Origin: a virus
DNA: 44,699 nucleotides
Virus record (IMG/VR): IMGVR_UViG_3300020154_000001
Location: 1 to 44,699 of that record
Direction: 5' to 3' (one strand)
Position 1 is the first letter of the stretch, and every line of letters starts with the position of its first letter. This document shows positions 24,981 through 39,394 of this stretch, in pieces. Under the pieces are notes generated by a model. It had not been told where the DNA came from, did no database searches, and worked only from the letters and a program-made list of their open reading frames with translations. Both the position numbers and the translations under genes were made by a program.

Positions 24981-25213
24981 TGAACAAAGAACTGAAAAGC
25001 ACGCTTCGCGAGATGCAAGCGCCCGAGCTGACCGCTGTTATCAACTTCTCGAAAGAGCTGCGCGCTGAGAAGCGCGTCGCGGCGACTGAGGAGCGCGCTC
25101 AACTCAAAGCACGGCTTGCCGAGCTGACCGAAAAGCGCAACCGCGGTGAGAAGGTCGAGAGCCCCAAGAAGGGCAAGAAGGGCAAGCGCTCCAAGAAGGA
25201 AGCCGAGGCGTGA
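24980..25213 (+). CDS. Small basic coiled-coil protein (77 aa)
   Basis: ATG at 24980 overlaps the nuclease stop (TAATG); a longer upstream frame is rejected. The N-terminal 50 residues are helical and charged (MNKELKSTLREMQAPELTAV, then QLKARLAELTEKRN). The C-terminus is a Lys-rich tail (SPKKGKKGKRSKKEAEA). The form recalls H-NS-like or histone-tail-like DNA binders. As a small, abundant-type basic protein it is one candidate for reading the genome-wide octamer, but nothing in the sequence shows that. Confidence 0.65.
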   Translation: MNKELKSTLREMQAPELTAVINFSKELRAEKRVAATEERAQLKARLAELTEKRNRGEKVESPKKGKKGKRSKKEAEA

Positions 25214-25743
25214 AGCGCGTCCAACACCCTGGTGGCTACGCAGTATTGGCAGGCCAGGGTGTTGTGCGGATAGAGCAGAAGGGGCCGCACTGCTTTTGGG
25301 TCGGCTCGCAGTACATAACGGATAACCTAACTGATGCCGAGGCGCTGAAGGCTCGATACGAGCGGCGCCGTTTAGAGGACCACATGGGCAAGAAGACAAA
25401 GTCGGAACCAAAGAACGCGAAGAACACAGGCCGCGGCAAGGGCGGCAAGTCGTCGGATGACGACGATGACGACGATGACGAGGATGAGGACGACGAAGAC
25501 GAGTCACCGAAGTCTAAGAAGCTTGCTCGGAAGACCAAGGGCGGCAAGGTCAACGCGCCGGAGTCAGATGACGACGATGACGACGATGACGACGAGTCGG
25601 ATGACGATGACGACGACGACGATGACGACGACGACGACGAGGATGAAGCCCCGAAGAAGGTCGGCAAAGGCAAATCCGACAAGTTTGACCGTGTGAAGGC
25701 TGCGAAGCTTGCACAGCAGCTTGTTGATATGCTGAAGCCGTAA
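25210..25743 (+). CDS. Poly-aspartate protein, possible DNA mimic (177 aa)
   Basis: The GTG at 25210 overlaps the previous stop (GTGA). The first 57 residues (MKRVQHPGGYAVLAGQGVVR...) form a small compact domain. Then come Lys-rich linkers and three almost pure Asp/Glu runs, the longest about 17 residues, encoded by GAC/GAT repeats near 25456-25505 and 25568-25645. The C-terminus returns to a basic helix (DKFDRVKAAKLAQQLVDML). Extreme acidity suggests a DNA mimic (anti-restriction, histone-like chaperone) or a partner of the basic protein encoded just before it. An internal ATG at 25384 could give a shorter acidic form. Confidence 0.7.
   Translation: MKRVQHPGGYAVLAGQGVVRIEQKGPHCFWVGSQYITDNLTDAEALKARYERRRLEDHMGKKTKSEPKNAKNTGRGKGGKSSDDDDDDDDEDEDDEDESPKSKKLARKTKGGKVNAPESDDDDDDDDDESDDDDDDDDDDDDDEDEAPKKVGKGKSDKFDRVKAAKLAQQLVDMLKP
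25222..25264. repeat. 11-bp inverted repeat built from two octamer sites
   Basis: CAACACCCTGG (25222-25232) and CCAGGGTGTTG (25254-25264) are perfect inverted copies 21 nt apart, inside the start of the poly-Asp gene. Both contain the genome-wide octamer. The arms extend three bases beyond the octamer, so the pair can form a stable cruciform or RNA hairpin. Confidence 0.6.
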
Positions 25744-26005: not shown

Positions 26006-26077
26006 TGGTCACTAGCACAACGGCAGTGCATCCGATTCCAAATCGGAAGGTTCTACGTTCGAATCGTAGGTGGCCAG
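26006..26077 (+). tRNA. tRNA-Trp (anticodon CCA)
   Basis: All arms fold. The acceptor stem is TGGTCAC/GTGGCCA with one G-U pair, and the D stem is GCAC/GTGC with loop AACGGCA. The anticodon stem is TCCGA/TCGGA with loop TTCCAAA, giving anticodon CCA for UGG codons. A 5-nt variable loop follows, then T stem CTACG/CGTAG with loop TTCGAAT. It has 72 nt including the discriminator G and no encoded CCA tail. It may support Trp-containing phage proteins or replace a host tRNA cleaved by a defence nuclease. No integrase or att repeat was seen, so it is not an integration remnant. Confidence 0.92.
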
Positions 26078-26079
26078 CC

Positions 26080-35569: not shown

Positions 35570-35791
35570 ATGAACAACATTCTCAAAAGAATCGACAATG
35601 ACTTTGTCTACCACGCGCCGAAAGAGGGCCAGCCTGCTACCTATGCTGAGATTCGCGAGCGCTGTCGTCTCTTGGCTGTACACTTCGCAGAAGTCATGCC
35701 GGAGTCAGCGGTGCGCGAACTCTCGCTAGCGCTGACCAAGCTGGAAGAAGCTGCGTTTTGGGCGAACGCAGGCATTGCGAGACACGGCTAA
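35570..35791 (+). CDS. acb2: Acb2-like cyclic-nucleotide sponge (anti-CBASS) (73 aa)
   Basis: Recognised from the conserved C-terminal signature LALTKLEEAAFWANAGIAR and the N-terminal FVYHAP, with R-x-R-C-R between. These are the hallmarks of the Acb2/Tad1-hairpin family (two long helices). Acb2 proteins form hexamers that bind cyclic di- and trinucleotides made by CBASS (and some Thoeris) sensors and so silence the effectors. Length is normal. It lies at the end of the plus-strand operon, so it should be made before late genes. The match is by eye, and the nucleotide-binding residues were not individually checked. Confidence 0.8.
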   Translation: MNNILKRIDNDFVYHAPKEGQPATYAEIRERCRLLAVHFAEVMPESAVRELSLALTKLEEAAFWANAGIARHG

Positions 35792-35894: not shown

Positions 35895-35934
35895 AAGCCC
35901 CGTGCGACCAGTCATCGCACGGGGCTTGTCTTTT
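35895..35934. terminator. Bidirectional terminator between convergent operons
   Basis: AAGCCCCGTGCGA (35895-35907) and TCGCACGGGGCTT (35915-35927) form a 13-bp stem with a 7-nt loop. T runs flank it on both sides (GTCTTTT on the plus strand; TTTT on the minus strand), so it should end both the replication operon and the lysis/metacaspase operon. Confidence 0.92.
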
Positions 35935-35949: not shown

Positions 35950-36813
35950 CTAGATGGAGAATGCCACGCTGCGCTCGAACGCGTCAAGCCGAGGTCCTGC
36001 GTAAACATAGTGCGGGGTCTGGGTTGGCGGCAGCGAGCGGCGCACTCGAGTGATAAGCTCACCGTAGCTCGCCTTCGGGTAGTGCCTCAGCGTCTGCAGA
36101 AGCGCCCCCGTAAAGGCGCCGTTGACCGGCCCGTCCATCGAGGTCTGATTGTCCTGACAGCCGCTGAACGACAGCACGTGGGCCTGAATCGGCGCTCGTT
36201 TGGCGACCGCTCGGGCCACTTGCCGGTATTCCATCTCGTTCCGCTCGGCCGTGCGTGCCATCACGTCCGGAGGCACAGCGCGGCTGTCAGGCTGCAGCAA
36301 CACCCCGGTCTGACCGAACGCGCGAACCATGGTGCCCGAGTGGCACGAGTCCGAAAGGAACATGATGCGGACTCCCGGCCGGAACGTCGCCCACGCGGCC
36401 TCCAACTCGTCGTCCAGAATCTGCCGGTCGTAGAGACAAATGGTCTCGTCCATGCTGTCTGATTCGTCGCTGTCGTAGTCGAACACCTGCGAGCCGTGGG
36501 AGCTGTTGCTGACTACGACAATGTCACCCGGAGCAGCTGCGCCGGCCAGCTCGCTCAGCGCCTTGAAAAAGTTGTGGCTGGTCGCGTTGCGAGTCAGGAG
36601 CACCATGCCTTCGTAGTCGCGCTCTTGCGTCAGCATGTGATGCATGTGACGTGCATCGTTCTCGCAGCCGCGCAGTGGGCCGCTCCAGCCGTCATAGTGG
36701 TCAGGGTCCACTACGTTGACGCCAACGTTTAGGCAGTAGCCTTTGGGCTTGCGCGTAGCTTTCGCAGGTTGCGGATGCTTCCAGAATGCGGCGAGTCGTT
36801 CGAATAGATTCAT
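35950..36813 (-). CDS. Metacaspase-like (C14) cysteine protease (287 aa)
   Basis: Start ATG at 36813 overlaps the endolysin stop (ATGA). A caspase p20-like core is clear: YCLNVGVNVVDP, LRGCENDARHMHHML, the catalytic His106 in VSNSSHGSQV, an acidic loop DYDSDESDSMDE, and Cys157 in FLSDSCHSG. The p10-like part has SFSGCQDNQTS, a metacaspase signature, and GAFTGALLQTL. The N-terminal 25 residues form a short helix. Type I metacaspases cleave after Arg/Lys, usually with Ca2+. It is the last gene of the late/lysis operon and lacks a signal peptide, so it acts in the cytoplasm or virion. Possible roles are cleavage of a host or virion protein, lysis timing, or interference with caspase-gasdermin defence. 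Both catalytic residues are present. Confidence 0.88.
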   Translation of the reverse strand: MNLFERLAAFWKHPQPAKATRKPKGYCLNVGVNVVDPDHYDGWSGPLRGCENDARHMHHMLTQERDYEGMVLLTRNATSHNFFKALSELAGAAAPGDIVVVSNSSHGSQVFDYDSDESDSMDETICLYDRQILDDELEAAWATFRPGVRIMFLSDSCHSGTMVRAFGQTGVLLQPDSRAVPPDVMARTAERNEMEYRQVARAVAKRAPIQAHVLSFSGCQDNQTSMDGPVNGAFTGALLQTLRHYPKASYGELITRVRRSLPPTQTPHYVYAGPRLDAFERSVAFSI

Positions 36814-37295
36814 GGGACACCAATAGGCCAACGGTAATCGATAATGTCTTCATACTTTTCGAGCTTGGTGCAAACGCGGTTACTCTGATTGCCACCAAGC
36901 ATCGCGAAGCCCTTACCAGGCAAGTCGCCAGCGTAGAAGCCGACGTGCGCTGCCTTCGGGTTCTTCGGGTCGATGCGTTTCGTAACGACGATAGCGCCGA
37001 TACACGCCTCGCACTTCTCGCCCCAGCCGAGCCAACTACGTGCTGCGGCTGACTTCGTTGACTTGATGCCGCACTGCTCCATCATGGCGCACACGAAGGC
37101 GGAGCACCACGCAGTCTCATCACTCTCGGCTAGCTCGTGCCCCTTGAGTGTTGTGTACTTGAAGAAGGAAAGAATGGTCGGGTGTGCCGCAACACCCTTC
37201 ACCTCCATGATTCCTGCGCGCTCGAACGTCTGAGCATGCAGAAACCATGGCGGTAGGAATGCTTCGGCAATCGGGACCTGAGCTACTTGCTGCAC
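36810..37295 (-). CDS. Endolysin, TIGR02594/NlpC-like peptidase (161 aa)
   Basis: Peptidoglycan hydrolase of the papain-like TIGR02594 type. Visible features are PPWFLHAQTFERAG near the N-terminus, catalytic Cys64 in TAWCSAFV, SAAARSWLGWGE (82-93), His117 in AAHVGFYAG, and Asn136 in GGNQSNRV. Length is typical of single-domain phage endolysins. GTG start at 37295 with GGAG five bases upstream. No signal peptide, so it needs a holin or membrane disruptor; candidates lie just upstream. Confidence 0.88.
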   Translation of the reverse strand: MQQVAQVPIAEAFLPPWFLHAQTFERAGIMEVKGVAAHPTILSFFKYTTLKGHELAESDETAWCSAFVCAMMEQCGIKSTKSAAARSWLGWGEKCEACIGAIVVTKRIDPKNPKAAHVGFYAGDLPGKGFAMLGGNQSNRVCTKLEKYEDIIDYRWPIGVP

Positions 37296-37609
37296 GCTAT
37301 CTCCGCCGTGTCTTTCATCGCCTGCTTGAAAATCTCCCTACGCGCCAGCAGCGTAACGATAAGACCCAAAGCAGTTTGGATTGCTGCCGTTGTCGGATTG
37401 ACGGCTGCTTGCACTGAGCCGCAGATTTTGACCATCTCGCTATCTTGCGCCTCCACCACGCCGCAGTACTGATTGAGCGCCGATGTCAGAGCCGCATGCT
37501 GCGTCTGTGCTTCCGTGAGCACAGCGCCTGCGTTCTGCGCCGGGGTGTTGGTGGCGAGGCAGCCTGAAGCCAGAATAAGTGACATAAAGAGAGCTACGAT
37601 GCTTTTCAT
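37283..37609 (-). CDS. Lipoprotein in lysis cassette, candidate outer-membrane spanin (108 aa)
   Basis: ATG at 37609 with AGGAAA upstream (ATGA overlap); an upstream in-frame start is not favoured. Signal peptide MKSIVALFMSLILASGC, lipobox Cys17, then a helical mature part with two more Cys and a hydrophobic segment (TAAIQTALGLIVTLLARREIF). A short lipoprotein next to an endolysin suggests an o-spanin, but the internal hydrophobic segment is unusual for that. Confidence 0.6.
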   Translation of the reverse strand: MKSIVALFMSLILASGCLATNTPAQNAGAVLTEAQTQHAALTSALNQYCGVVEAQDSEMVKICGSVQAAVNPTTAAIQTALGLIVTLLARREIFKQAMKDTAEIACSK

Positions 37610-37854
37610 TTTGGTTTCCTGATGTACGGGTCGGTTGGGTCGTTGTCTGTGTCCCAAGGGTCGAGATGCGCCGCTTGGATATTGAATCTGTCCAGCTTAC
37701 CAGCGAGGTAAGCTGCTTTGAGTGCCGCCGAGCACTGCTCGCGAATCGTCCCCAACTCGGCGAGACTCAGCGCTCGGCCTGATAGATAGCGGACAGCTGC
37801 GGCCGTGTTACGCGTGAATACGTCTAGGATGATTGCAAGCTTAGGGTTGGTCAT
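37606..37854 (-). CDS. Hypothetical lysis-cassette protein (82 aa)
   Basis: ATG at 37854, coupled on both sides. Helical first half (MTNPKLAIILDVFTRNTAAA..., LAELGTIREQCSAALKAAYL), then an acidic C-terminal tail. No membrane segment long enough for a holin. Unknown role. Confidence 0.6.
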   Translation of the reverse strand: MTNPKLAIILDVFTRNTAAAVRYLSGRALSLAELGTIREQCSAALKAAYLAGKLDRFNIQAAHLDPWDTDNDPTDPYIRKPK

Positions 37855-38017
37855 TCAACGCGCCTGAGGCAGCGTCAAAGAGCGCAACGACAAAGCTTGC
37901 ACCGTCAGTGATTGCCCCAGCCTCCCACAGACCTACGAGGGTAGTTGCGACTGCGAGCACGATGCCCGCAATCTTGAGAGCAGCCTTCACAGTCTTCGGG
38001 TCAATGGTCGGTTTCAT
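37841..38017 (-). CDS. 58-aa small membrane protein, candidate holin
   Basis: ATG at 38017, TAA at 37841. The protein (MKPTIDPKTVKAALKIAGIV, then LAVATTLVGLWEAG) has a strong membrane segment at about 12-30 and a weaker hydrophobic stretch at 38-50 (TDGASFVVALFDAASG). A small one- or two-helix membrane protein within two genes of the endolysin is the best holin or pinholin candidate here. Confidence 0.6.
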   Translation of the reverse strand: MKPTIDPKTVKAALKIAGIVLAVATTLVGLWEAGAITDGASFVVALFDAASGALNDQP

Positions 38018-38294
38018 GCTTGAATAGCCTCGGTGCTGATGTTTCTTTTTCTAGTACAGTCAACCTATACGTGAGCAGCTGAGTCGTTGTCTTCTCGGCT
38101 ACTAACTCTTGCTGCAGCGTTTCACACGTCACGTTGAGTCTATCAACGCTCGTCTTTAGCGACTTGAGTGTGTGCTCCATCGACACGAAGCGCGCATGCA
38201 TAGTGAACACGACGCCAATAACGCCGCCGACGAACGTGCTGTACTTGACTGCGGTTTCAATCCAGCCTTTCACGCTGTCAGCTCGCTTATCCAT
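38001..38294 (-). CDS. Membrane-anchored coiled-coil protein, candidate holin or inner-membrane spanin (97 aa)
   Basis: ATG at 38294. After a short basic start, one membrane segment (about 18-33, YSTFVGGVIGVVFTMH) is followed by a long coiled coil (SMEHTLKSLKTSVDRLNVTC...). This N-in membrane anchor plus periplasmic coiled coil is the i-spanin form; some holins look the same. It opens the lysis cassette and overlaps the tail-protein gene upstream by 25 nt. Confidence 0.6.
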   Translation of the reverse strand: MDKRADSVKGWIETAVKYSTFVGGVIGVVFTMHARFVSMEHTLKSLKTSVDRLNVTCETLQQELVAEKTTTQLLTYRLTVLEKETSAPRLFKHETDH

Positions 38295-39394
38295 GCACCA
38301 TGCTCGCTATAAGTGCCGTCCACTAAGTCGGCTCGCCATTGCACCGGTAGTACTTGACTCGGAGCCCCCGCTGACAGCTCCGCGGCCAATGTCAAGTGGC
38401 CCGAAACTGCATAGACCTGTTGTAACACGGCCGACAAAACTGCGCCTGTGGCGAGTGTGCCCGAGCGGTTGAAAATCCGCCCAGCTGCCCCGTCCAGCGA
38501 CGCAGTGGCAGACATGCGGCCGGAAACCTCAATGGTCGTGTCTAAGGTCGGCTCGCCAGTCAGCGCGGCTGCCGTGGCGAGGTTGCCCGACACGTTGAAC
38601 TGCATGGCATGAGCGCCACTGAAGGCGGCAGCGGCGGCCACAACACCCGAGGCGCCTAGGACTAGGGTGTTGGTGCCCGAGCTGAGCGTTGCCGACGCGC
38701 CGAAGCTGCCCGAAACGTCTATGACGTTCGAGGGCTCTAGCTCCCCTGGCACCGTGTGCAGGCCGGCTCCGGGGCTACCGCCGCCTGCAGCTATGTTGGT
38801 TATCGTATGCGCGTTGCCGGAGCTGTCTGTTAGCCCGCCCGCCTCGAACTGCCACCACGCCTCTACAAAAGCTGTTCCGTGCTGAGGCGTCCAGTAGGCC
38901 GCCTCATCAGCCAGCTCTGAAGTGTCGAGCGCGTAGCCGTTCCACGCTTTGAGCTGAGCTATTTCTAGGTCATTCCCGCCGCCAAAGTCACCATACTCGC
39001 AACGCGTAAAGACTGCAGCTAACGTGACTGACGTGACTTGCTCTACTTGCACGCCATCTACGTACGCAGTTACAGTACCCGCAGACGCATCATGCACCAT
39101 CGCAACGTGGTACCATTGGCCTAAGCTTATGGTGTGCGTGTAGTCCATCACACGTGACGTACCGTCGGCGCATACGAAGCGCAGCGACGGATTGCTGCCT
39201 ACGCGCTCGTATCCAAGATACGTCATGACGCCAGCAGCGTACGTGCCGTCATCTTGAAAGAAGATATCGCCGCCACCACTACCGCTAGTCGAGTAGTAGA
39301 ACCATCCACATACAGACCAATCGTTAGCAGAGTCGAAAGACCAGCCTGAGTTTATCTGGTCATATGTGAACCCTTGGAAGTAGCGGCGACTCAT
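38270..39394 (-). CDS. LamG-domain tail protein, possible receptor binding (374 aa)
   Basis: The N-terminal 210 residues form a concanavalin A/LamG-like jelly roll: WSVCGWFYYST, GQWYHVAMVHDASAGTVTAYVDGVQV and a later IAQLKAWNGYALDTSEL are typical. The C-terminal 150 residues hold five or so copies of a 25-30-residue unit with V-S-G-x-(F/L/M)-x-x-x-A-x-L (Ala/Ser/Leu-rich), probably a repetitive stalk. LamG domains bind sugars, so a tail tip adhesin is plausible. It follows the fibre genes. Confidence 0.75.
   Translation of the reverse strand: MSRRYFQGFTYDQINSGWSFDSANDWSVCGWFYYSTSGSGGGDIFFQDDGTYAAGVMTYLGYERVGSNPSLRFVCADGTSRVMDYTHTISLGQWYHVAMVHDASAGTVTAYVDGVQVEQVTSVTLAAVFTRCEYGDFGGGNDLEIAQLKAWNGYALDTSELADEAAYWTPQHGTAFVEAWWQFEAGGLTDSSGNAHTITNIAAGGGSPGAGLHTVPGELEPSNVIDVSGSFGASATLSSGTNTLVLGASGVVAAAAAFSGAHAMQFNVSGNLATAAALTGEPTLDTTIEVSGRMSATASLDGAAGRIFNRSGTLATGAVLSAVLQQVYAVSGHLTLAAELSAGAPSQVLPVQWRADLVDGTYSEHGAWISELTA

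Follow-up and report, generated by a model that had tools for sequence, protein, structure and literature searches.

The window analysed here, 44,699 bases long, is an entire IMG/VR record of an uncultured bacterial virus, a podovirus-like phage. A late operon on its minus strand passes from a tail fibre gene into a lysis block and closes with a metacaspase gene. The features of this locus are the following:

35570-35791, plus strand: Acb2_Tad1_hairpin protein of 73 aa (PF24729, E = 1.1e-17), convergent with the caspase gene
35895..35927, both directions: strong bidirectional intrinsic terminator with a 13-14 bp stem (fold z-score -6.3), ending the late operon after the caspase gene
35950..36813, minus strand: GSU0716-type metacaspase (Peptidase_C14) of 287 aa with His106 and Cys157 intact, final gene of the late operon
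36810..36813, minus strand: ATGA overlap joining the endolysin stop codon TGA to the caspase start codon ATG, read directly in the sequence
36810..37295, minus strand: TIGR02594-family protein, predicted endolysin, with a GTG start (80.6 bits against a curated cut-off of 70.55)
37283..37609, minus strand: small lipoprotein with a lipobox-like LASGC, candidate outer spanin (sequence reading)
37606..37854, minus strand: 82-aa protein of unknown function within the lysis block
37841..38017, minus strand: 58-aa protein with a single hydrophobic segment, candidate holin (sequence reading)
38001..38294, minus strand: protein with a membrane anchor and a coiled coil, candidate inner spanin (weak match to the Rz-like spanin phrog_739, E = 0.0049)
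38270..39394, minus strand: LamG-domain tail fibre protein (PF13385, E = 3.3e-13), upstream of the lysis block

Following the minus strand, the LamG tail fibre gene precedes those of the coiled-coil protein, the candidate holin, the 82-aa protein, the lipoprotein, the TIGR02594 endolysin and the caspase, after which comes the terminator. Several genes of this tightly packed operon overlap one another, and the terminator begins 23 nt past the caspase gene, which is the last of them. The endolysin and caspase genes are co-directional, have the terminator in common and are coupled through the ATGA; the direct reading of bases 36810-36813 bears out the translational coupling claimed in the first-pass annotation. 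The position in the operon suggests that the caspase is produced late in infection. The TIGR02594 gene also matches a tail lysozyme family (phrog_1259, 1.6e-27), and its reading as an endolysin is supported by its homologues in the related phages G052 and G053, which come after tail-fibre and holin-like genes. The LamG tail fibre is conserved in the closest relative, G044 (46% identity), and a small membrane protein encoded at the equivalent position in that phage looks, on visual comparison, similar to the candidate holin; the PHROG search returned no match and no holin family for the candidate holin, and the lipoprotein has no family match in Pfam or PHROG. The layout after the tail fibre, with a TIGR02594 endolysin, candidate spanins and a candidate holin, is like that of canonical lysis cassettes built of holin, endolysin and spanins, except that in the window the endolysin gene is overlapped by one for a protease of caspase fold. 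Elsewhere on the plus strand, the window encodes a tRNA-Trp with a CCA anticodon (26006-26079) and a protein with long aspartate runs (25210-25743).

The caspase gene starts at the ATG at 36813 and stops at 35950-35952, so that the coordinates first given for it, 35950-36813, hold a genuine reading frame, but on the minus strand. Its 287-aa product matches Pfam Peptidase_C14 (PF00656) with E = 4.6e-28 and 98.9 bits, above the curated cut-off of 21.4, and a phmmer search of the PDB ranks 3bij/GSU0716 first (4.5e-56) and yeast Yca1 next, with Candida and plant metacaspases among the further matches. In the phmmer alignment Cys157 falls on the catalytic cysteine of Yca1, the one mutated to Ala in 4f6p. 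The catalytic His/Cys dyad, present in H-G and D-x-C-H-S-G motifs, is invariant among 50 aligned relatives, and the SGCQDNQTS segment is intact. The caspase core with His106 and Cys157, numbered from the ATG at 36813, was thus correctly recognised at first reading. Together with an identity of 49-50% to proteins of two related phages, the E-values exclude a chance reading frame. Across viral loci, His106, Cys157, Asp155 and Asp53 are invariant in 43/43 compared; Asp155 and Cys157 belonged to the search pattern by which these loci were retrieved, whereas His106 and Asp53 did not.

An AlphaFold2 model of the window caspase, built on 50 relatives, has a mean pLDDT of 90.3 and a target-normalised TM-score of 0.88-0.89 to 3bij, which identifies a caspase fold. 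The comparison with metacaspase structures that the first-pass annotation had proposed therefore shows the fold kept in the model, and at this level the model gives no sign of the lost catalytic geometry that would have spoken against a protease. Cys50, Asp53, Ser104 and Asp155, which we take to be the equivalents of the basic-P1 pocket residues of trypanosome MCA2, are all present and make up a complete predicted acidic S1 pocket for Arg/Lys; Asp53, Ser104 and Asp155 were covered by the conservation counts across viral loci. As to calcium dependence, in our reading of the alignment Asp122, Asp134 and Asp135 are kept, and Arg164 occupies the position Cys+7, at which trypanosome MCA2 has a calcium-ligand Asp. 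Residues 160-169 form a low-confidence loop in the model, compatible with a processing loop.

The nearest known protein, GSU0716 of Geobacter sulfurreducens (PDB 3bij), a prokaryotic type I-like metacaspase, likewise consists of a single caspase domain, with 43% identity in the aligned set and the same His/Cys/Asp and SGCQDNQ segments; it is encoded by a cellular gene, whereas the window copy is phage-borne and closes a late operon in which it overlaps an endolysin. The type I metacaspases Yca1 (4f6o) and MCA2 (4afr) share the aligned catalytic dyad and the C-x-x-D, S-x-H and D-x-C motifs, but the window protein lacks a prodomain. Giant viruses and ascoviruses also encode caspase folds (Foldseek search of BFVD, best E 3.1e-15); however, their hosts are eukaryotic, the identities are mostly 10-26%, and the pairing with an endolysin is a feature of bacterial viruses. 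Of the BFVD matches at E<=0.001, a single one bears a phage label, and it scores poorly (TM 0.36). From these residues and motifs, we infer a prodomain-less and active metacaspase with a predicted specificity for Arg/Lys, in agreement with the initial description of an apparently active metacaspase in a phage late or lysis operon.

Comparison with related phages indicates how firmly the gene belongs to this lineage. Structural genes are common to the window, G044, G045, G048, G001, G002 and others. G044, with identities of 78, 62 and 83% for terminase, portal and capsid, has the same terminase-portal-capsid-tail set as the window and carries neither the caspase nor the TIGR02594 gene. Among 22 related records, which may be incomplete, caspase matches occur in G001 and G002 only, and TIGR02594 is confined, with the same reservation on completeness, to G002, G052 and G053. 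G001 and G002, more distant relatives than G044, carry orthologues that group with the window caspase in one clade (SH-aLRT 97). In G002 the caspase gene lies just before the terminase and the TIGR02594 gene about 44 kb off on the contig; with these genes apart, and with G044, G045 and others devoid of the caspase, a constant endolysin-caspase adjacency in this lineage was rejected. It follows that the caspase is kept, or exchanged, within one phage group and is dispensable for head and tail.

These comparisons bear directly on a role in virion maturation, which had been raised at the outset, or as a virion-borne protease. Such a role would suit a late gene in an operon common with tail genes, but G044 possesses the same head and tail module without it, which marks the caspase as an accessory gene that virion maturation can do without, and it sits at the lysis end of the operon, not between portal and capsid. 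Virion protein maturation is thereby largely excluded, and we regard a virion function as extremely improbable. Another reading is a cargo gene at the permissive end of a late operon, whose product would act after release, for example on neighbouring cells or released polymers, or in competition between phages. Phage cargo genes often lie beside lysis genes, the caspase is the last gene before the terminator, and G044 has neither caspase nor TIGR02594. However, neither a signal peptide nor a targeting domain is apparent in the caspase; Pfam matches in the window include no integrase, which makes lysogenic conversion unlikely; and the overlapping start and stop codons bind the caspase to endolysin translation. 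We hold a cargo function to be quite unlikely.

A single-sequence search of IMG/VR with the caspase gave no matches, and a profile search was needed to find further viral copies. Profile scans of viral contigs retrieved 45 loci in a first round and 52 in a second, which added 17 new ones; removal of near-duplicates left 43 and 15, about 58 non-redundant loci, whose neighbouring genes were called in-house and checked with Pfam and PHROGs. Besides the window, four viral caspases lie directly downstream of an endolysin of another family, with an overlap of 1 or 4 nt, and others precede an endolysin or lie near one:

G001/L010: M15_4 endolysin (4.2e-7) directly upstream of the caspase, ATGA overlap
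L035: endolysin with NLPC_P60 (5.2e-6) and PG_binding (2.6e-14) directly upstream, TTGA overlap, on a contig identified as phage by terminase, portal and capsid
L047: amidase-type endolysin of phrog_12609 (7.5e-21) directly upstream, GTGA overlap
L231: GH25 endolysin (1e-18) directly upstream, 1-nt overlap within TAATG
L031: caspase directly before an endolysin of phrog_1493 (4.9e-18), 8-nt overlap
L217: caspase directly before an endolysin with a Muramidase match (1.7e-71)
L258: M15_4 protein (4.4e-15) two genes from the caspase
L025: glucosaminidase (2.8e-8) two genes from the caspase

An SLT gene at L026 was not counted as an endolysin, as PHROGs links it to baseplate hub proteins. Since the endolysins come from different families, the pairing does not go back to a single block of genes passed on by descent.

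We compared these arrangements with a rough null model that assumes one endolysin per contig and 1.15 genes per kb, based on in-house gene calls and with the window excluded. Plain adjacency of caspase and endolysin, seen in 6 cases against 2.8 expected, is not significant (P=0.065) and was rejected as evidence. An overlapping endolysin directly upstream is found in 4 cases against 0.21 expected (P ~7e-5), with the reservation that the null is rough and that the criterion is post hoc, being set after the first cases, when it required 4 nt, and later relaxed to admit the 1-nt overlap of L231 as well. Overlaps of 1 or 4 nt are shown by 14.9% of co-directional pairs. In the second retrieval alone, 1 such case is seen against 0.047 expected (P=0.046). 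The majority of the retrieved viral caspases, that of G002 included, are not beside an endolysin, and their positions are widely scattered. This scatter and the weak significance of plain adjacency are what would be expected if mobile metacaspase genes were caught by chance near lysis genes as neutral passengers with no role there. Against this, highly diverged viral copies, including those of a second clade, retain the catalytic residues and those of the predicted S1 pocket, and the members of the window/G001/G002 clade (SH-aLRT 97), at about 49% identity, point to a gene long kept. A neutral passenger thus seems distinctly improbable, and the occurrence of metacaspases paired with unrelated endolysins in other phages strengthens the link of the caspase to lysis.

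Other genes were noted beside viral metacaspases. Patatin-like phospholipase genes lie directly upstream on two phage contigs, L027 (7299-8423, PF01734, 1.1e-21) and L034 (2700-4013, assigned by sequence reading), and at L020 (10609-11121, plus strand) a phospholipase A2-like gene, also assigned by reading and with no Pfam match, directly follows the metacaspase gene.

Bacterial relatives of the caspase have a TIGR02594 protein in their vicinity in S. meliloti and a CHAP/PG-binding protein as immediate neighbour in Palleronia. Metacaspase-amidase fusions in bacteria, and an amidase in a metacaspase operon of G. sulfurreducens, are described in an earlier report (PMC3501461). Endolysins as recurrent neighbours of bacterial caspases were not borne out, clustering having yielded large-hydrolase-like and papain-like proteins as judged by sequence reading. 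Bacterial metacaspase relatives at L003, L009, L057, L058, L069, L081, L096, L108 and L110 often have papain-like peptidase neighbours, and in rhizobia an apparent SGNH-hydrolase-like domain, also recognised by reading, is followed by a caspase domain in a single protein.

The convergent gene at 35570-35791, 158 nt from the caspase gene, likely encodes an anti-CBASS or anti-Thoeris sponge, to judge from its Acb2/Tad1-type family match. Homologues of this type are found in G001 and several related phages, and at L256 (4384-4887, plus strand; PF24729, 2e-13) one is the second gene downstream from a viral metacaspase. Since the phage encodes such a protein, it probably faces nucleotide-signalling immunity, and the caspase might accordingly be imagined as an anti-immunity or host-takeover protease that cleaves host defence proteins or disturbs caspase- or gasdermin-type suicide systems, the late operon being a mere site of expression. 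In a PADLOC scan of the caspase and the endolysin, the caspase alone matches, weakly, a caspase defence model (1.9e-10), and partner genes of caspase defence systems are absent from the Pfam assignments of the window's genes. A link between caspase and Acb2 was rejected, as Acb2-type genes occur in 5/12 relatives without the caspase and in only 2/50 viral records with it. Late expression would also come late for blocking immunity, and an anti-immunity function leaves the repeated endolysin overlap unexplained. Overall, we consider it unlikely.

The literature searched yielded no description of a caspase or metacaspase in a phage lysis cassette, and PHROGs has no family matching the caspase. 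When three diverse viral caspases served as tblastn queries on 50,697 phage records, the only match was in an uncultured 485-kb phage; this jumbo phage (L002/L040, LR745208.1) carries an intact metacaspase and is the sole match among public phage records. The initial statement that no such cassette had been described thus stands for the literature and phage records covered. Phage-related metacaspase operons were reported earlier in Clostridium botulinum, and differ in that neither endolysin coupling nor lysis is described in the passages of that report consulted (PMC3501461). While the enzymes belong to a known family, their occurrence in phage lysis modules appears to be new.

The best explanation of the locus, which we advance tentatively and at somewhat less than an even chance, is an active, prodomain-less metacaspase with an accessory function in lysis. 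From its last place in the late operon and its ATGA coupling, the caspase would be expected to be produced late, at a pace set by the endolysin, and because no signal peptide is apparent, it would accumulate in the cytoplasm. Its action may come at about the time the holin is triggered and the membrane opens, with ion influx as a guess for the trigger, given that one calcium ligand of trypanosome MCA2 is missing here, and it could cleave envelope-tethering, cytoskeletal, nucleoid or stress proteins of the host, leading to cell collapse and release of progeny. In favour of this explanation are the intact catalytic residues and the fold, the place in the operon, the overlap, its recurrence with unrelated endolysins in other phages, and the cell-wall enzymes found with some bacterial metacaspases. 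The common use of late operon ends as landing sites for cargo genes, the position of most retrieved viral caspases away from endolysins and the close relatives without a caspase count against such a role. A broader proposal, which we find rather doubtful, is that metacaspases have been taken up by phages time and again and form a lysis protein class of their own: cytoplasmic proteases, synthesised along with the endolysin and activated once the holin opens the membrane, that would dismantle the host proteome while the wall is being cut.

Accounts of phage lysis speak of holins, endolysins and spanins, and do not count a caspase-type protease among the recognised components. If the pairing is functional, phages share with bacterial suicide immunity and eukaryotic cell death one enzyme family. 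The poorly understood GSU0716-type metacaspases of bacteria, some of them encoded close to enzymes of the cell wall, would likewise gain a testable hypothesis of a function at the cell wall or in lysis.
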